DNA of 64,000 bases from Myxococcaceae bacterium JPH2. Lineage in GTDB: Bacteria > Myxococcota > Myxococcia > Myxococcales > Myxococcaceae. Shown piece after piece: positions 46,772 to 62,869 of this stretch (positions are counted from its first letter, which is position 1; each line of letters begins with the position of its first letter). The DNA lies in contig JAEMGR010000015.1 in the NCBI GenBank assembly GCA_016458225.1, positions 1 through 64,000 of the forward strand, read 5' to 3'. A program made the translations under genes and the position numbers. The notes beneath the pieces were generated by a model, which saw only the letters and a list, made by a program, of their open reading frames with translations, was not told the DNA's origin and did no database searches.

Positions 46772-47860
46772 CTACGTCGCGCCCCGCAGAAACGCGGCCA
46801 GCTTCTCGTAGGAAACCGCGAGCGGAGGGATGGGCGCGCTCTCGTTCACTTGATGCGCTTGCGCCGTCTCGCCCGGGCCGAAGTTGATGGCGTCCACGCC
46901 CCACTCACCGAAGCGCGCCACGTCCGTCCAGGCCTGCTTCGACGCGGCGGGCAGCCCCGTGAGGGCCATCAACTTCTGGAACAGCGGGTTGCTCGCGGCC
47001 ACGGGTCCGCTGGGCGAGGCATCCGTGACCTCCACCTCGGCGCGGCCCGCCACCAGCGCGAGCACATCCTCGCGCGCCCGAGCGATGCTCTTGCCCGGCG
47101 CGAAGCGGTAGTTGAGGTTCAGCTCGAACACGTCCGGCACGACGTTGCGCGCGCGGCCGCCCTTGGCGAGCGTGGCGCTCATCACTTCGTAGAAGGGGAA
47201 GCCCGCCACATCCACCTCCACGCGCGGGCGAGCGAGCAGCTCCGAGAGGAACGGCCCCGCCTTGTGGATGGCGTTCTCGCCCTGCCACGGCCGCGCGGAG
47301 TGAGCGCTGCGCCCGGTGAAGCGCACCGTCACCTGCATCGAGCCCACGCACCCCACCTGCACGACGCCGTCGGTGGGCTCCATCGCGATGCCGAACTTCA
47401 CGCGCGCCAGGTCCGGCCGCTTCTCATAGAGCGGGATGAGGCCGCTCTCCGCATAGGCCCCCTCCTCGCGCTCATAGAGGAGGAAGGCGATGTTGACCGG
47501 GAGCGTGTCGCGGCGCAGGTCCTCGGCCAGCGCCATCATCACGGCCAGCCCACCCTTCATGTCGGACGCACCCAGGCCGAACACGCGCTCGCCCTCGATG
47601 CGCGGCTCGCGGCCCGCGTCGCTCGGGTGCATCGGCACCGTGTCCAGATGTCCAATGAGCGCCACCGTGGGGCGCGGGTCGTCCAGCGTTCCCACCAGCA
47701 GCGTGTGGCCCACCCGGAACACCTGCTCCCGCGGGAAGTGCCCGAGGGCCCAGCGCTCGACATGGTCAGCCAGAGGCCCCTCCTGGGTGATGGGGCTGGC
47801 GATGCGACACAACTCGAGCGTCTTGTGGGCGAGGCGGGCGGCGAGGTCGGTGGGGGACAT
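46772..47860 (-). CDS. dapE: Succinyl-diaminopimelate desuccinylase
   Basis: 362 residues, M20 metallopeptidase family. Metal ligands are visible: His71 and Asp73 in GHLDTVP, Asp100 in GASDMKGG, the general base and ligand pair Glu132-Glu133 in REEG, and the late His in AHQVNE. A dimerisation domain (about 175-290) is inserted. DapE removes succinate from N-succinyl-LL-diaminopimelate in the lysine/peptidoglycan pathway. Upstream on the strand are a ChrR-like gene and dapD, the earlier step of the same pathway. Strict DapE activity against related desuccinylases cannot be told from sequence alone, but the dapD context supports it. Confidence 0.9.
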   Translation of the reverse strand: MSPTDLAARLAHKTLELCRIASPITQEGPLADHVERWALGHFPREQVFRVGHTLLVGTLDDPRPTVALIGHLDTVPMHPSDAGREPRIEGERVFGLGASDMKGGLAVMMALAEDLRRDTLPVNIAFLLYEREEGAYAESGLIPLYEKRPDLARVKFGIAMEPTDGVVQVGCVGSMQVTVRFTGRSAHSARPWQGENAIHKAGPFLSELLARPRVEVDVAGFPFYEVMSATLAKGGRARNVVPDVFELNLNYRFAPGKSIARAREDVLALVAGRAEVEVTDASPSGPVAASNPLFQKLMALTGLPAASKQAWTDVARFGEWGVDAINFGPGETAQAHQVNESAPIPPLAVSYEKLAAFLRGAT

Positions 47861-47914
47861 GCGGCCCCGACCATAACCCCGACCCGACGCGGGCGCAGAA
47901 GGAGCAACGGCGGC

Positions 47915-48550
47915 TCAGGGCGCCGTGGACGGCTCCGGCTCGAACTGGACCACCCCGTCCAGCACCGTGGCGGCGATGCACGCAGGACCCATGAGGGCGG
48001 TGAAGTCGTGGGAGGACCCCTCCGCCTTGTCGAGCGCCTCGCCGGGCCACACCTCCCGCCCGTCCTGCTCGCGCAGCCCCCCCTCCAGCACCAGGTTCCA
48101 CTCACGCCCCAGGTGCGTATGCCGGGGGTAGCGCGCGCCGGGATGCAACCGCACGAAGGCGGCCATCATCCCCTCGCGCCCCGGCCCTGGCTCGACCGGC
48201 GCCAGCTCCACACCCGACACCGGGCCGGGCATCCACGCCTCGGGTTGACCGAGCGACGCGAGCAGCGCGGTGGCTCGCTCCCGCGTCACGTCGAACAAGG
48301 TCGCGACGGGCCCAGCGAAGCGCGCCAGCCGGCCCGGCCCCTCCATGGCGCCCATCAACCGCGCGAGCCCTCCAGACGGCGGCGACACCGGCACCACCGT
48401 CGCCCCGAGAGCGTCCACCACGGGACGCAGGCGCTCCGCCGCCGCGCGGCACCCGCCACACCCCGCGAGGTGACGCTCGGCCGCCCGCCGCTCCTCCGGC
48501 TCCAGGGTCCCGAGCAGCCAGCCGGGCAGCATGTCGTCCAGATGCATCAT
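47915..48550 (-). CDS. ChrR-like cupin anti-sigma factor
   Basis: 211 residues, no membrane segment. The N-terminus has the zinc motif HLAGCGGC with His27, Cys31 and Cys34, and the C-terminus (about 130-205) is a cupin with RYPRHTHLGREWNLVLEGG and a downstream DKAEGSSHDF. This two-domain layout is that of ChrR, which in other bacteria releases an ECF sigma factor in response to singlet oxygen or organic peroxide. No sigma gene is adjacent. It lies between dapD and dapE, 66 bp after the former and 54 bp before the latter, so it is probably expressed with lysine biosynthesis. Confidence 0.85.
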   Translation of the reverse strand: MMHLDDMLPGWLLGTLEPEERRAAERHLAGCGGCRAAAERLRPVVDALGATVVPVSPPSGGLARLMGAMEGPGRLARFAGPVATLFDVTRERATALLASLGQPEAWMPGPVSGVELAPVEPGPGREGMMAAFVRLHPGARYPRHTHLGREWNLVLEGGLREQDGREVWPGEALDKAEGSSHDFTALMGPACIAATVLDGVVQFEPEPSTAP

Positions 48551-48616
48551 CGTCTCGGCCGGTGGCGTCCCGCTCGGAGGGCTATACGGGAGCGCGGGGG
48601 CCCGCGGATTTCCGCG

Positions 48617-49441
48617 TCACACCTGCACGCCGAAGTCGCGCAGCGCGGCGTTGAGACTCGTCTTCTGGTCCGTGGAGGCAGTCCGCTGCCCGATGATGAG
48701 CGCGCAGGGCACCATGTACTTGCCGGCGGGGAACTGCTTCTCGCGCATGCCGGGAATCACCACGCTGCGAGCGGGGACGCGGCCCTTGTAGACGCGCTCC
48801 TCGGGGCCCGTGACGTCGATAATCTGCGTGGACGCGGTGAGCACCACGTTGGCGCCCAGCACCGCCTCCTCCTCCACCACCACGCCCTCCACCACGATGC
48901 TGCGGCTGCCCAGGAACGCCCCGTCCTCGATGATGACAGGCGACGCGGTAGGTGGCTCGAGCACGCCGCCCAGCCCGACGCCGCCGGACAGGTGGACATG
49001 GCGGCCCACCTGCGCGCAGCTCCCCACCGTGGCCCAGGTGTCCACCATGGTCCCCGCGCCCACGCGCGCGCCGATGTTCACGTAGCCGGGCATCACCACC
49101 GCGCCCCGCTCCACGAACGCGCCATAGCGCACCGTGCCCGGCGGCACCACGCGCACGCCCGCCTGCTCCAGGCCCTTCTTGAGCGGCACCCGGTCGTAGA
49201 ACTCGAAGGGGCCCATCTCCATCACCCGCATCTCCGACACGGCGAAGAACAGGAGGATGGCCTCCTTCACCCACGCGTGGACCCGCCAGCCCTCCGGGCC
49301 CTTCTCCGCCACGCGCAGCTCGCCCGCGTCCAGGCGCGCCACGGTCTCGCGGACCGCGGCCACGAACTCCGGGTCCTTCAGCTTCGTGCGGTCCGCGAAT
49401 GCCGCGGACACCTTCTGCGACAGCTCTTCAATGGAGGCCAT
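48617..49441 (-). CDS. dapD: Tetrahydrodipicolinate N-succinyltransferase
   Basis: 274 residues from the ATG at 49441 (an upstream ATG at 49459 is less likely). N-terminal helices, then left-handed beta-helix hexapeptide repeats (about 100-245) such as VVMPGYVNIGARVGAGTMVD and VGSCAQVGRHVHLSGGVGLG, with the conserved GTMVDTWATVGS region, and a C-terminal SLNAALRDF. It transfers succinyl from succinyl-CoA to tetrahydrodipicolinate as a cytoplasmic trimer, the step before DapC and DapE. Confidence 0.94.
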   Translation of the reverse strand: MASIEELSQKVSAAFADRTKLKDPEFVAAVRETVARLDAGELRVAEKGPEGWRVHAWVKEAILLFFAVSEMRVMEMGPFEFYDRVPLKKGLEQAGVRVVPPGTVRYGAFVERGAVVMPGYVNIGARVGAGTMVDTWATVGSCAQVGRHVHLSGGVGLGGVLEPPTASPVIIEDGAFLGSRSIVVEGVVVEEEAVLGANVVLTASTQIIDVTGPEERVYKGRVPARSVVIPGMREKQFPAGKYMVPCALIIGQRTASTDQKTSLNAALRDFGVQV

Positions 49442-49498
49442 GTCGCCCTCTTGAATCACACTTCCGGCCCCCGCGCCGCACCCGCGTGCGCGCCCGGA

Positions 49499-49798
49499 CT
49501 ACGCGTCCGGTCCCACCGTCACGGGGAACGTCTGGGTGGGAATCTCCCCATGCAGCCCCGGGGGCGCGGGCGTCATCACCACCGGGCCGCGCCCCTCCAC
49601 CCGCACCGTGCCCGCCAGCACCTGACGCACCGCCGACAGCGGCACCTCGCCCCACCGCCGCGAGAACGGCCAGCGGCGCACATACAGGTGCTCCTGCCCG
49701 ATGAAGGCCACGTACCCGAGCAACGCGCCGTCCTCGTCCCGCACGCGCATGCCCTGGACGATGGAGCGACGCTCGAACGGCGATGCTTCCAGTTCCAT
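49499..49798 (-). CDS. Small conserved-looking protein of unknown function
   Basis: 99 residues; GGAGG lies a few bases before the ATG at 49798. The first half, IVQGMRVRDEDGALLGYVAFIGQEHLYVRR in two parts, resembles a PRC-barrel-like or DUF2171-like beta barrel: GMRVRDEDGALLGYV and LYVRRWPFSR. The rest, EVPLSAVRQVLAGTVRVEG, fits its last strands. It is soluble and upstream of dapD by 57 bp on the same strand. Role not known. Confidence 0.65.
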   Translation of the reverse strand: MELEASPFERRSIVQGMRVRDEDGALLGYVAFIGQEHLYVRRWPFSRRWGEVPLSAVRQVLAGTVRVEGRGPVVMTPAPPGLHGEIPTQTFPVTVGPDA

Positions 49799-50004
49799 CG
49801 GACCCCCTCCGTCCCCCTCAACCTGGAGCGCGCCCCTCCTCCAGGCCACCCCTCCCGGGGCCCGCTCGCCCGGCTGACCCAAGAAGGCCGAGCAGACGCG
49901 CGTTCACTCCACGACAGACGCAGGAATGCAGGGGCCCACGCGCCACGATTCCAATCGGGCGTTGAACCAGCGGCCAGCGCGGGGCGCGCACGCCCGGGAC
50001 GCCC

Positions 50005-52527
50005 TCACGACGGCAGGTCGACGGTGAAGACGCTCCCGTGACCGGGCAGCGAGCGCAGCATCACCTTGCCCCCCAGCACCGCCGTCAGCTCGCGCACCAG
50101 CGTCAGGCCCAGGCCCACGCCGGGCTTGGACTTGTGGTCGAGCGGCTCCAGGTGTTGGAAGGGCTCGAAGATGCGCGTCTGGGCCTCCACGGGAATCCCC
50201 GGCCCGGTGTCGCGCACCACCAACCGGCGCACATCGGGGACGACCTCCACGGAGACGCGGACGCCGCCGTGCTGCGTATACTTCACCGCGTTGAGCACCA
50301 GGTTGTGCAGCACGAGCTGCACCATGCGCGCGTCCGTGCTCAGCACCACTGGCCCCGGAGGCCGCTCCAGCTCCAGGGTGAGCTGCTTGCGCTCGGCCTC
50401 GGCGCGACACTCCTCGAGCACCTCCTCGGCCACCGCCACCAGGTCCACCGGCCCGCGGCGCACCACGAGCTGTCCCTCCTCCAGTTGCGTGTACTGGAGC
50501 ACCATCTCCACCATGTCCCGCAGACGCGAGGCGGAGCGGCCCATGCGGTCGAACATCTCCGAGGCCCGGGGCGACAGCGGCCCCAGCTCACGCAGGAACG
50601 CGTGCTGCGTCAGGTGCAGCACCGACAAGGGCGTGCGCAGCTCGTGCGACACCAGCCGCAGGAGCGTGCTCTTGGATTCGCTGGCGCGCTCGGCCACCAC
50701 CCGCGCCGCGCTGGTGGACTCCAGCGCCACCTCCAACTGGCGGCGCCGCAACCCCACCTCGCGCGCCAGCTGCACCACGTCCTCCGAGCGCTCGGACACC
50801 TCCGACTGGAGCACCTCGCGCGTGCGCTTGATCACCGCCAGGTTGTGCACGCGCGCCAGCAGCTCCTCGGCGACGAAGGGCTTCACCACGTAGTCCTGCG
50901 CCCCCGCACGCAAGAGTTCCACGCGCATCGCATCGTCGGCGCGCGCGGTGAGCAGCAGCACCGGCGTGCCCGACAGCTCCTCGAACGCGCGCACCTCGCG
51001 CACCAGCCGCTCCCCGCCCATGCGCGGCATCATCACGTCGCTGACGATGACGTCTGGCTTGAGGGCGCGAGCCTTGCTCAGCCCCTCCTCGCCATCCACG
51101 GCGGTCTCCACGCGGAAGTCCGCCGCCAGCGTGTCCGCCACGAAGCGGCGCATCTCGCGCGTGTCCTCCACCACCAGCACGCGGGGCCGGAGCGGATCCT
51201 CCGGTGTCTCGGGCGAGGTCGGCGCATCCTCGCCCAGCTCCCGAGTCGCCGCCGCCGTCTCCCGCGCCACCGCGCCCAGCGCCCTCGCATCCAGCTCCGT
51301 GCGCCCGCGCACGTCCTCGCCCTCGGGCGCGCGCAAGGGCAGCGTCACCACGAAGCGCGCACCGCCTCCAGCCCGGTCCTCCACCAGGATGCGGCCCCCG
51401 TGCAGCACCACGAAGTCTCGCGCGATGGCGAGCCCCAGCCCCGTGCCGCCCAGCACGCTGGCCTCCACCGGCGCGCCCTGGCGGAAGCGCTGGAAGATGA
51501 TCTCCCGCAGCGCCGGCGGCACGCCCGGCCCCGAGTCCTCCACCACCAACTGCGCGGCGCCCTCGCGCGCGGTCAGCTCCACCCGGAGGATGCCGCCGGG
51601 CGGGGTGAACTTCACCGCGTTGGAGAGCAGGTTGAGCACCACGCGCTGGACCTGGTCCGGGTCCACCTGCCCCGGCAGCGCCTCCGGCAGGTCCAGCTGG
51701 AAGTTCAGCGCGCGCTCGGCGATGAGCCCCTGGAAGTTCTCCGCGCACAGGCGCACCAGGGTCGACAGGTCCGCCTCCGCATAGGCCGGCCGCATCATCC
51801 CCGCGTCCAGCTTCGCCACGTCCAGGAGCGAGTTCACGTGCCGCAGCAACACGCGCGCGTTGCGCCGCACCACCTCCAGGTCCTTGCGGTCCGCCGCCGC
51901 CAACCCCTCGCGCTGAATCAATCGCTCCAGCGGCCCCAGGATGAGCGCCAGCGGCGTGCGCAGCTCATGGCTGATGTTGGCGAAGAACTCCGTGCGGTGC
52001 GCGTCCGACTCCTGCAGCCGCCCGTACAACGTCTCCAGCTCCGCCTTGCGAATCTCCAGCTGCGCGCGCCGGTCCTCCGACATGCGCGCAGTCTGTGCCA
52101 CATCCATGATGCGCCCGCGCAGCGGCACCAGGTAGAGACCGGTGGCCACCGAGGCCAGCGCGGTGAGCAGCTTGATGCTCCCCGACAGCCAGTAGGCGGA
52201 GTGCCAGACGTTCCAGACCTCCATCACATGAGTGAGGCCGCACGCCCCGATGAAGACCCCGAACGAGACAATCATTCCGCTGAAGGGCAACCGCCCCCGG
52301 CGCACCAACCGCCACAGCGACAGCGCGATGAACAGATACGCGGCCGCGATGAGGGAGTCCGAGGCGATGTGCAGCCACATCAGCTCGGGCTTCCACAGGT
52401 AGCAGTGCCCGTGAGGCATGAACCACGCGCCGTCGAGCAGCCAGGACAACCCCCCTCCCTCGGCCAACCCGCCCTCCCCTCCACCGGGGCCCAGCAGTTG
52501 GCTGGCGCGTTCGAGCTGGTGACTCAT
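50005..52527 (-). CDS. Hybrid sensor with ethylene-receptor-like membrane domain and two kinase modules
   Basis: 840 residues. Three membrane segments (about 50-72, 84-104, 112-136) match the ETR1-type sensor: an acidic residue in the first (Asp57), and CGLTH with Cys96 and His100 at the end of the second, the residues that bind copper in plant and cyanobacterial ethylene receptors. A coiled linker follows. HisKA 1 has SHELRTP with His187, HATPase 1 is at about 290-400, a receiver has DDE-like ED and phosphoacceptor Asp497 in SDVMMP, HisKA 2 has SHELRTP with His628, and a second HATPase ends the protein. Two complete kinases around one receiver is unusual. No response regulator is adjacent. 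Confidence 0.93.
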   Translation of the reverse strand: MSHQLERASQLLGPGGGEGGLAEGGGLSWLLDGAWFMPHGHCYLWKPELMWLHIASDSLIAAAYLFIALSLWRLVRRGRLPFSGMIVSFGVFIGACGLTHVMEVWNVWHSAYWLSGSIKLLTALASVATGLYLVPLRGRIMDVAQTARMSEDRRAQLEIRKAELETLYGRLQESDAHRTEFFANISHELRTPLALILGPLERLIQREGLAAADRKDLEVVRRNARVLLRHVNSLLDVAKLDAGMMRPAYAEADLSTLVRLCAENFQGLIAERALNFQLDLPEALPGQVDPDQVQRVVLNLLSNAVKFTPPGGILRVELTAREGAAQLVVEDSGPGVPPALREIIFQRFRQGAPVEASVLGGTGLGLAIARDFVVLHGGRILVEDRAGGGARFVVTLPLRAPEGEDVRGRTELDARALGAVARETAAATRELGEDAPTSPETPEDPLRPRVLVVEDTREMRRFVADTLAADFRVETAVDGEEGLSKARALKPDVIVSDVMMPRMGGERLVREVRAFEELSGTPVLLLTARADDAMRVELLRAGAQDYVVKPFVAEELLARVHNLAVIKRTREVLQSEVSERSEDVVQLAREVGLRRRQLEVALESTSAARVVAERASESKSTLLRLVSHELRTPLSVLHLTQHAFLRELGPLSPRASEMFDRMGRSASRLRDMVEMVLQYTQLEEGQLVVRRGPVDLVAVAEEVLEECRAEAERKQLTLELERPPGPVVLSTDARMVQLVLHNLVLNAVKYTQHGGVRVSVEVVPDVRRLVVRDTGPGIPVEAQTRIFEPFQHLEPLDHKSKPGVGLGLTLVRELTAVLGGKVMLRSLPGHGSVFTVDLPS

Positions 52528-58782: not shown

Positions 58783-59554
58783 ACAATGAGCACCTCCGGG
58801 CGCAAGGCATCGGGGTTTCAACCCACGCTCCTCGCGGACACGAGGAGCGACACTCCATCCTCGACCAAGAGCCGGAACATAGCCCGTTTCAACCCACGCT
58901 CCTCGCGGACACGAGGAGCGACGCGCCGATGGTGCTCGCGCTACTCGCCGGGCGGTTTCAACCCACGCTCCTCGCGGACACGAGGAGCGACCCTTTTGAA
59001 TTTGGTCGTAGGCGTTCTGACCAAGTTTCAACCCACGCTCCTCGCGGACACGAGGAGCGACTCTTCCGCTCATGCGCGCCACGCAGCGGGCGGTTTCAAC
59101 CCACGCTCCTCGCGGACACGAGGAGCGACTCCCGTCATACCGTCGGCCTTGGCGCGGTCCAGGTTTCAACCCACGCTCCTCGCGGACACGAGGAGCGACA
59201 GCCCCAGCTCATTCGCAGCCCGGCGCATGGTTTGTTTCAACCCACGCTCCTCGCGGACACGAGGAGCGACTCCCACCACCCATCGCCCAACGATTCTTGG
59301 ACTGTTTCAACCCACGCTCCTCGCGGACACGAGGAGCGACCGGGTGGCTGGCCGTGCAGATTCGACTCGCCAAGGTTTCAACCCACGCTCCTCGCGGACA
59401 CGAGGAGCGACTTGTTGTCGCGCGGAATGAGCGAATGACTTGTTGAGTTTCAACCCACGCTCCTCGCGGACACGAGGAGCGACGCCGCGCCTCGTCTCGC
59501 TCCTCCTGGACGCGACGGTTTCAACCCACGCTCCTCGCGGACACGAGGAGCGAC

Positions 59555-60008
59555 GCCCCGCCCAGTCCAACGCCTGGGTGATAGCCTGGTTTCAACCCAC
59601 GCTCCTTGCGGACACGAGGAGCGACATGAACTCGTCAACCGCACCGCGCATGTCGAGGTTTCAACCCACGCTCCTCGCGGACACGAGGAGCGACGGGCCT
59701 CTGGCGAGCCTCACCGCATATTCCGCGGTTTCAACCCACGCTCCTCGCGGACACGCGGAGCGACGCCCCGCCCAGTCCAACGCCTGGGTGATAGCCTGGT
59801 TTCAACCCACGCTCCTTGCGGACACGAGGAGCGACATGAACTCGTCAACCGCACCGCGCATGTCGAGGTTTCAACCCACGCTCCTCGCGGACACGAGGAG
59901 CGACCTCCAGGACTACGGGATGGGGACGTCGCCAGTGGGTTTCAACCCACGCTCCTCGCGGACACGAGGAGCGACTGGCCTCTGGCGAGCCTCACCGCAT
60001 ATTCCGCG
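59555..60008 (-). repeat. Segmental duplication in the CRISPR array, block 1
   Basis: The spacers at 59555-59588 and 59626-59657 recur exactly at 59765-59798 and 59836-59867. The repeat between them (59589 and 59799) carries the same rare C-to-T change in both copies, so the spacers and repeat were copied together. The spacer at 59695-59727 recurs at 59976-60008 with its first base changed, after one unrelated spacer (59905-59938). Confidence 0.92.
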
Positions 60009-60468
60009 GTTTCAACCCACGCTCCTCGCGGACACGAGGAGCGACTAGCGCCATTCACCAGCACGAGGGACTGGCGAAGTTTCAACCCACGCTCCTCGCG
60101 GACACGAGGAGCGACCCTGGAGGAGCTGTCGCCTCATTTCCTCGGTGATGTTTCAACCCACGCTCCTCGCGGACACGAGGAGCGACATCCACGGGCGATC
60201 GGCCGTGAAGGAGCCAGTCCAGTTTCAACCCACGCTCCTCGCGGACACGAGGAGCGACCAGTTCCGCGCACGACTGGCAGCCACTCATCAGTTTCAACCC
60301 ACGCTCCTCGCGGACACGAGGAGCGACCATGGAGTCAAGGACTACTCCTCGGTCCCCTCCTGTTTCAACCCACGCTCCTCGCGGACACGAGGAGCGACAT
60401 GGAGCCAAACCAAGATGCCAGCCGATATCAAGTTTCAACCCACGCTCCTCGCGGACACGAGGAGCGAC

Positions 60469-60778
60469 CATGTCGCTCGGAAGTCCTTGAGCATTCTGCC
60501 GGTTTCAACCCACGCTCCTCGCGGACACGAGGAGCGACTATCCGGGCCTGATTCATCAGTGCTTCGAGCAGTTTCAACCCACGCTCCTCGCGGACACGAG
60601 GAGCGACTATCCGGGCCTGATTCATCAGTGCTTCGAGCAGTTTCAACCCACGCTCCTCGCGGACACGAGGAGCGACCATGTCGCTCGGAAGTCCTTGAGC
60701 ATTCTGCCGGTTTCAACCCACGCTCCTCGCGGACACGAGGAGCGACTATCAGGGCCTGATTCATCAGTGCTTCGAGCA
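60469..60778 (-). repeat. Spacer duplications in the CRISPR array, block 2
   Basis: Five consecutive spacers use two sequences. The spacers at 60469-60501 and 60677-60709 are identical. The spacers at 60539-60570 and 60608-60639 are identical, and the one at 60747-60778 differs from them by one base (C to A at its fifth base). Confidence 0.92.
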
Positions 60779-61169
60779 GTTTCAACCCACGCTCCTCGCG
60801 GACACGAGGAGCGACCGTCGCTGTTCCCGCGCGGGAGTCAGGCGCTGTCGTTTCAACCCACGCTCCTCGCGGACACGAGGAGCGACATCCGCAGGATGGC
60901 GAACCCGGTGCCGCGGCGCGCGTTTCAACCCACGCTCCTCGCGGACACGAGGAGCGACAACCGCCAGCCTCGTGGAAGCGAACGTGACCGCGTTTCAACC
61001 CACGCTCCTCGCGGACACGAGGAGCGACCTGATGCCCAGTACGCGCGCTACAAGCCCGTGGAGTTTCAACCCACGCTCCTCGCGGACACGAGGAGCGACT
61101 GCCGGTGATGTCCATGTTCGCCATGTTCTTACGTTTCAACCCACGCTCCTCGCGGACACGAGGAGCGAC

Positions 61170-61624
61170 TTCCACGACCCCATGCTCGTCCCGCTCGGGC
61201 GAGGTTTCAACCCACGCTCCTCGCGGACACGAGGAGCGACGGTGGTCAGCTTCTTCAGCGTGTACTCGGCCGAGTTTCAACCCACGCTCCTCGCGGACAC
61301 GACGAGCGACCGGGCCCCCCGAGACGAACTGGCGGCCCATCGGGTTTCAACCCACGCTCCTCGCGGACACGAGGAGCGACTTCCACGACCCCATGCGCGT
61401 CCCGCTCGGGCGAGGTTTCAACCCACGCTCCTCGCGGACACGAGGAGCGACCGGGCCCCCCGAGACGAACTGGCGGCCCATCGGGTTTCAACCCACGCTC
61501 CTCGCGGACACGAGGAGCGACTGAGCCCGTGCACGCTCTTGAGCGCACCTGCTGGTTTCAACCCACGCTCCTCGCGGACACGAGGAGCGACGGTGGTCAG
61601 CTTCTTCAGCGTGTACTCGGCCGA
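61170..61624 (-). repeat. Spacer duplications in the CRISPR array, block 3
   Basis: Spacer 61170-61203 recurs at 61381-61414 with one changed base. Spacer 61241-61273 recurs exactly at 61592-61624. Spacer 61311-61343 recurs exactly at 61452-61484. Their order differs between the copies, and the variant repeat at 61274 is not carried along. Confidence 0.92.
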
Positions 61625-62869
61625 GTTTCAACCCACGCTCCTCGCGGACACGAGGAGCGACTGGGAAATTTACGACTGGATGCAACTTGGTCTAGTTTCA
61701 ACCCACGCTCCTCGCGGACACGAGGAGCGACGTAGCCCCCTTGTCCCCGAGGGTGCCCGCAGTGTGTTTCAACCCACGCTCCTCGCGGACACGAGGAGCG
61801 ACTGGCCATTGCCTCCGCGTTGATCTGCGACGTTCCGTTTCAACCCACGCTCCTCGCGGACACGAGGAGCGACCACGACGCGCCCCGGAGCGACCTCCGA
61901 ACACAGGTTTCAACCCACGCTCCTCGCGGACACGAGGAGCGACTGTGCGGCTTCAGGATGATGGAGCCGTTGGAGCTGTTTCAACCCACGCTCCTCGCGG
62001 ACACGAGGAGCGACGTCTGGCGAAGGTCGACCCCACCGGCATTTGCCGGTTTCAACCCACGCTCCTCGCGGACACGAGGAGCGACCCTGCTGCTCGCGCA
62101 GCTCCGGGCACGCGGGAGCGTTTCAACCCACGCTCCTCGCGGACACGAGGAGCGACGCTACGGCGCGCGACTGCTGGAGCTGCGGCGCGGCGTTTCAACC
62201 CACGCTCCTCGCGGACACGAGGAGCGACCGCGCTGCAGGCGAAGGCGCAGGACTACATCGCGTTTCAACCCACGCTCCTCGCGGACACGAGGAGCGACCT
62301 GATCCGTAGCATCACGCCGTCACAGGTCACTCGTTTCAACCCACGCTCCTCGCGGACACGAGGAGCGACAGCCCCCCTCACCCATCACGAAAGGAACCAT
62401 CCATGTTTCAACCCACGCTCCTCGCGGACACGAGGAGCGACGACGGTGTCCATCACCTGCGTTCCGAACGGTGAGTTTCAACCCACGCTCCTCGCGGACA
62501 CGAGGAGCGACGGGCTGTGTGACTTCGGCTCGTCCACGTCGAAGTCGTTTCAACCCACGCTCCTCGCGGACACGAGGAGCGACTGGGTCGGTGGTGAGTG
62601 GCAATTGATGCCATTCGTGTTTCAACCCACGCTCCTCGCGGACACGAGGAGCGACCATCCGGACGCCCGCCGAGCGCGAGGCCGCCCAGGTTTCAACCCA
62701 CGCTCCTCGCGGACACGAGGAGCGACAGCGCCGCGCCGAGGTCCGTTGCCGCCGTGGCGCGTTTCAACCCACGCTCCTCGCGGACACGAGGAGCGACGGT
62801 GCGAGCTTCTTCGACAACATCGGGTATCTCGAGTTTCAACCCACGCTCCTCGCGGACACGAGGAGCGAC

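Follow-up and report, generated by a model that had tools for sequence, protein, structure and literature searches.

Most work on ethylene receptors has concerned plants, cyanobacteria and Azospirillum. The 64,000-nucleotide stretch of DNA analysed here (the window), from a soil myxobacterium, encodes an 840-residue protein in which the original prediction had recognised a putative copper or ethylene-type sensor driving two kinases in one chain, an arrangement that it regarded as unusual and capable of an internal phosphorelay. The open-access papers that we searched contain no description of myxobacterial ethylene receptors; as most subscription journals lay outside this search, these proteins may already appear in earlier surveys. 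The ETR1-type family is already known in bacteria, as is the double-kinase layout from LvrA of Leptospira; what is new is the combination of an ETR1_N domain with a kinase-receiver-kinase (HK-REC-HK) architecture, its spread both within and outside the myxobacteria, and the absence throughout the subfamily of the proline corresponding to Pro36 of ETR1.

An ETR1-type membrane domain precedes two intact kinase modules

The gene and its features, with the evidence for each in brackets, are as follows.

50005-52527, minus strand: whole gene, ETR1_N-HisKA-HATPase-REC-HisKA-HATPase, 840 aa (ORF, Pfam, alignment of orthologues)
52108-52386, minus strand: ETR1_N (PF25487) three-helix membrane sensor domain, residues 48-140 (Pfam, genome search match, AF2)
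52357-52359, minus strand: Asp57, equivalent to Asp25 of the ETR1 copper/ethylene site (residue check, alignment)
52324-52326, minus strand: Ala68 at the ETR1 Pro36 position, where Pro is required for ethylene binding in ETR1 (alignments; PMC6586836, PMC11819568)
52228-52242, minus strand: CGLTH motif, with Cys96 and His100 equivalent to the ETR1 copper ligands Cys65 and His69 (residue check, alignment)
52171-52173, minus strand: Lys119, equivalent to ETR1 Lys91 (alignment)
51799-51996, minus strand: first HisKA, residues 178-243, phospho-acceptor His187 at 51967-51969 (Pfam, alignment)
51331-51663, minus strand: first HATPase_c, residues 289-399, N, G1 and G2 boxes intact (Pfam, alignment)
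50848-51180, minus strand: receiver, residues 450-560, with Asp497 (51037-51039), Asp455, Thr527 and Lys549 present (Pfam, alignment)
50647-50841, minus strand: signalling helix from receiver to second kinase, Lys549 to His628 being 79 residues (alignment, linker count)
50473-50682, minus strand: second HisKA, approx. residues 616-685, phospho-acceptor His628 at 50644-50646 (Pfam, alignment)
50011-50346, minus strand: second HATPase_c, approx. residues 728-839, N, G1 and G2 boxes intact (Pfam, alignment)

A GC3 of 0.94 and an end-to-end alignment of 25 full-length proteins (the window copy and 24 orthologues) establish the open reading frame as a real gene, and its start codon at 52527 is supported by nearly all Myxococcus-group orthologues, which have a Met aligned with it. 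Pfam recognised ETR1_N once, HisKA twice, HATPase_c twice and Response_reg once in the protein, the ETR1_N match reaching E = 3.5e-30 and 104.6 bits against a curated cut-off of 27. Assignment of the membrane domain to MHYT or another sensor family was rejected, since no MHYT match appeared in the Pfam scan up to E = 1. The predicted ETR1-type identity of the domain is therefore upheld, as are the two intact kinase modules flanking an intact receiver: the catalytic residues of both kinases and of the receiver are preserved throughout the 25-protein alignment, in which Asp57, Cys96, His100, Lys119, His187, Asp497 and His628 are invariant. Cys96 and His100, on whose conservation the prediction depended, are kept in all close relatives. 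Apart from Lys119, which it did not name, these seven residues lie exactly where the prediction had placed them, and its reading of the CGLTH motif was right, although the motif sits within the final third of helix 2 rather than at its very end.

AlphaFold2 (AF2) modelled the membrane domain as three long helices (residues 47-77, 83-108 and 112-144) with a mean pLDDT of 83; the full-length model, a monomer, was only moderate (pLDDT 71, pTM 0.42). A Foldseek search with the domain model gave no PDB match at E<=0.001, a result that is uninformative because no ETR1 membrane-domain structure turned up for comparison, and searching PDB sequences with the same domain retrieved no relevant relative, the matches to beta-propeller designs and to a CoA transferase being due to chance.

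The copper ligands are retained and Pro36 is replaced

We read the correspondence to ETR1 from the Y-x-x-I-P and C-G-x-T-H spacing common to AzoEtr1 of Azospirillum brasilense and other bacterial sequences. Tyr32 is taken as the seventh of the ethylene-binding residues of ETR1. Ethylene binding by ETR1 requires seven residues (PMC11819568), among them I35, P36, I62, C65 and H69 (PMC6586836); Pro36 was listed as required by alanine scanning (PMC6586836, PMC11819568), and Asp25, Cys65 and His69 constitute the copper site (PMC12643061). Six of the seven are kept in the 840-residue protein, the exception being Pro36, replaced by Ala68. This exception extends to all 27 readable myxobacterial sequences, which carry Ala or Ser at this position, compared with Pro in 71/87 others; sorted by layout, Ala or Ser is found in 30/30 HK-REC-HK proteins and Pro in 53 of the 67 others with readable layout. 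The equivalents of Cys96 and His100 are invariant in 28/28 myxobacterial sequences, that of Asp57 is Asp in 25/28 rows (two Asn, one gap), and that of Lys119 is Lys in 26/28 myxobacterial and 78/87 other sequences. The Pro110 equivalent has been lost in Citreicoccus and Myxococcus, leaving 11 Gly and 8 Arg versus 9 Pro among the myxobacterial rows.

In the tree, all HK-REC-HK domains fall into one EBD clade (support 100/91) that lacks Pro36 throughout and also holds a few proteins without Pro36 that mostly have one kinase and are acidobacterial where their origin is known. As there is a single clade, the correlation between Pro36 and layout may reflect one ancestral change rather than repeated adaptation. 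Since the copper ligands are retained, Cu(I) binding by the HK-REC-HK subfamily is plausible as judged from sequence; ethylene binding by the 840-residue protein is uncertain and is not to be assumed, because the Pro36 position is Ala or Ser in every HK-REC-HK protein, which makes ethylene a weaker candidate than had been claimed. The uniform absence of Pro36 beside intact copper ligands amounts to a natural experiment on the needs of the site and on other possible ligands. Two proteins from Myxococcaceae MAGs (L051, 8646-8975, minus strand, and L052, 4775-5104, plus strand) carry Asp25 to Asn and Lys91 to Arg together with Cys and His kept, providing a natural test of that residue pair, and in one HK-REC-HK protein (L231, 738-3155, plus strand) Gly replaces the copper-ligand Cys65.

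Among characterized receptors, AzoEtr1 and SynEtr1 (Synechocystis) share with the 840-residue protein an N-terminal ETR1-type three-helix domain and a histidine kinase output. AzoEtr1 (L133), which binds ethylene in tests (PMC11819568), is about 40% identical over the ETR1-type domain, and direct comparison of its sequence showed that both proteins have equivalents of Asp25, Tyr32, Ile35, Ile62, Cys65, His69 and Lys91. AzoEtr1 keeps Pro36, has a PAS domain and one kinase, and is probably co-transcribed with a response regulator (PMC11819568), whereas the 840-residue protein has Ala68, no PAS domain, the HK-REC-HK layout and no linked regulator. SynEtr1, according to its published description, has a cyanobacteriochrome and one kinase. 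Arabidopsis ETR1 shares the membrane sensor family and the copper ligands but has a GAF domain, one kinase and a C-terminal receiver, and its Pro36 and Pro110 are not conserved in the 840-residue protein.

The cytoplasmic part has the layout of LvrA

The best NCBIfam match of the protein was LvrA (NF047465) at 520 bits, below the cut-off of 1200, with the best stretch at residues 155-575. The HisKA-HATPase-REC-HisKA-HATPase order with intact phospho-sites is that of LvrA, and the protein thus has the LvrA layout but is not LvrA itself. LvrA is a PAS-HK-REC-HK protein that is reportedly phosphorylated at His218 and transfers the phosphate preferentially to its own Asp524, with His616 in its second kinase (PMC5863495). 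These sites (218/524/616) are placed similarly to residues 187/497/628 of the window protein; LvrA differs in its PAS sensor, its cytoplasmic location and its operon partner LvrB. The supposedly unusual layout is accordingly less so than proposed, HK-REC-HK having been published for Leptospira LvrA (PMC5863495) and the fusion to an ethylene-receptor domain recurring in many myxobacteria and in homologues from the cyanobacterial sample.

Structures of LvrB, a receiver-controlled kinase, show that phosphorylation of its receiver forms a heptad coiled coil, which releases the catalytic domain, and linker lengths in its class favour multiples of seven (PMC13269768). Residues 450-840 of the window protein likewise form a REC-signalling helix-HK unit; LvrB is free-standing and receives its phosphate from LvrA, whereas its counterpart here is fused to the putative donor. 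The helix joining receiver and DHp shows a 3-4 hydrophobic repeat, and the distance from the receiver Lys to the second His is 79 residues in 14/25 proteins and 72 in 11/25, with nothing else observed. The shorter linkers, exactly one heptad less, all belong to Myxococcus orthologues that form one clade in the trees, so this change of seven residues is a single event and counts as one observation. Three of four homologues from the cyanobacterial sample have the 79-residue linker, the fourth being left out of the count for its variant H-box. Because the protein matches the LvrA layout, with an ethylene-receptor domain in place of the PAS sensor, its second kinase is most likely controlled by the receiver, as the kinase of LvrB is. 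A donor kinase, a receiver and a receiver-controlled kinase in one chain would make a handy single-protein system for the LvrB control mechanism.

Ligand and mode of signalling

Ethylene is common in soil, and the protein could be a bona fide ethylene receptor that tolerates Ala or Ser at position 36 and senses soil or plant ethylene like AzoEtr1 and SynEtr1. We consider this a real possibility that falls somewhat short of an even chance: six of seven binding residues and a validated bacterial relative speak for it, set against the requirement for Pro36 in ETR1 alanine scanning (PMC6586836, PMC11819568), the absence of this Pro from every HK-REC-HK member and its presence in most other proteins of readable layout, and the fact that no ethylene-related gene was recognised next to the kinase gene. 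The change at Pro36 might instead mark a switch of ligand in the subfamily, making the protein a copper-dependent or metal-free sensor of a non-ethylene signal such as another gas, a small olefin, Cu(I) itself or the membrane redox state. Loss of Pro36 throughout one well-supported clade, the additional loss in Citreicoccus and Myxococcus of Pro110, a signalling residue in ETR1, and the altered Asp25/Lys91 or Cys65 of some members are consistent with such a switch, which we would nevertheless place a little below even, since almost every member keeps its copper ligands unchanged, just as an ethylene-type site would, and the neighbouring genes point to no alternative ligand. A fuller proposal, that the Ala/Ser36 HK-REC-HK subfamily has switched ligand, its copper site senses a non-ethylene signal and the two kinases amplify or gate that signal, strikes us as tentative and rather unlikely.

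The prediction of an internal phosphorelay would have phosphate travel from His187 to Asp497, on to His628 and then to an external receiver, and the domains are intact and in the right order for this. The relay beyond Asp497 is nonetheless weaker than suggested, because the protein has no HPt domain and work on LvrA and LvrB favours transfer from His187 to Asp497, after which the phosphorylated receiver would control the second kinase allosterically; His628, moreover, lies in a HisKA paired with a complete ATPase domain of its own, and such a HisKA normally autophosphorylates. We regard a true multistep relay as improbable. We favour, and hold to be reasonably probable, a reading in which the protein is an orphan sensor that depends on copper: its first kinase would phosphorylate Asp497, and Asp497 would in turn gate the second kinase. 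The three-helix domain, as a dimer, would most likely hold Cu(I) through Cys96 and His100, aided by Asp57, and the copper site would bind a small uncharged ligand, either ethylene or a different small molecule that binds copper. The ligand state would travel through helix 3 and the long helix that follows to the first kinase, which would autophosphorylate at His187 and hand the phosphate on to Asp497 within one chain; once phosphorylated, Asp497 would rearrange the receivers and the heptad-patterned signalling helix, switching the second kinase (His628) on or off as in LvrB, and this kinase may phosphorylate an unlinked response regulator. Ethylene binding by the homologous AzoEtr1, the ETR1_N match, the conserved Cys, His and Asp, the LvrA/LvrB precedent, the heptad pattern and heptad-sized length change of the linker, the preserved catalytic residues and the failure to recognise a response-regulator gene nearby argue for the orphan-sensor model, and we have counted against it the Ala at Pro36, a substitution that abolishes ethylene binding in ETR1, the moderate monomer AF2 model, the one-event linker change and the lack of a PDB relative.

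Distribution and genomic neighbourhood

The closest named genome, Citreicoccus inhibens, belongs to the same genus as the genome that holds the window and is 98% identical in the ETR1_N domain, which makes the source of the window a Citreicoccus species of the family Myxococcaceae. The domain occurs in 22/96 Myxococcaceae genomes and in another five from a second family of the order, putatively Anaeromyxobacteraceae; elsewhere, matches over the Pfam cut-off were found in 72/292 genomes of the cyanobacterial sample, 28/398 of Pseudomonadota and 13/247 of Acidobacteriota. The ETR1_N-HK-REC-HK layout with active-site residues kept is present in 25/25 aligned myxobacterial proteins and in L051. 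Of the remaining bacterial ETR1_N proteins that we examined, the majority carry a single kinase, frequently accompanied by PAS domains; some have a receiver and others do not. As the non-myxobacterial relatives first compared all lacked two kinases, the layout had seemed restricted to myxobacteria, an idea ruled out by four of 39 sampled non-myxobacterial ORFs (about 780-1010 aa) that are HK-REC-HK, with 42-48% identity over 800 residues; these four come from a phylum sample built around a cyanobacterium. With its high GC of 68.5%, L231 may be a misbinned contig; L225, at 38%, fits a cyanobacterium. Two further candidates for double-ATPase proteins, L211 and L212, were discarded, as each has a single HisKA and adjoining stretches that look like one domain in two pieces.

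A divergent glycosyltransferase gene adjoins the kinase gene and was rejected as a partner, since it is kept only within the Myxococcus-Citreicoccus group; copies of the kinase gene in the second family and in genome G060 have other surroundings. None of the neighbours examined was recognisable as a response-regulator gene, and no such gene is conserved there. In kinase-negative genomes, most closely G023, G096 and G031, the glycosyltransferase lies beside a PLP-dependent-decarboxylase-like gene, named by sequence appearance. One genome counted as negative (G102; L121, 8529-8675) retains the last 49 codons of the kinase gene beside the glycosyltransferase at the same spot, probably a recent loss at this locus. 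Just downstream of the kinase gene in Citreicoccus (window 46772-49882, minus strand) are dapE-like, ChrR-like cupin/zinc-finger and dapD-like genes, and several Myxococcus genomes have a decarboxylase-like gene separating these three from the kinase gene, all again named by appearance. The window also carries a large CRISPR-like array at 58815-62860, in which GTTTCAACCCACGCTCCTCGCGGA recurs without change 56 times, about every 70 bases.
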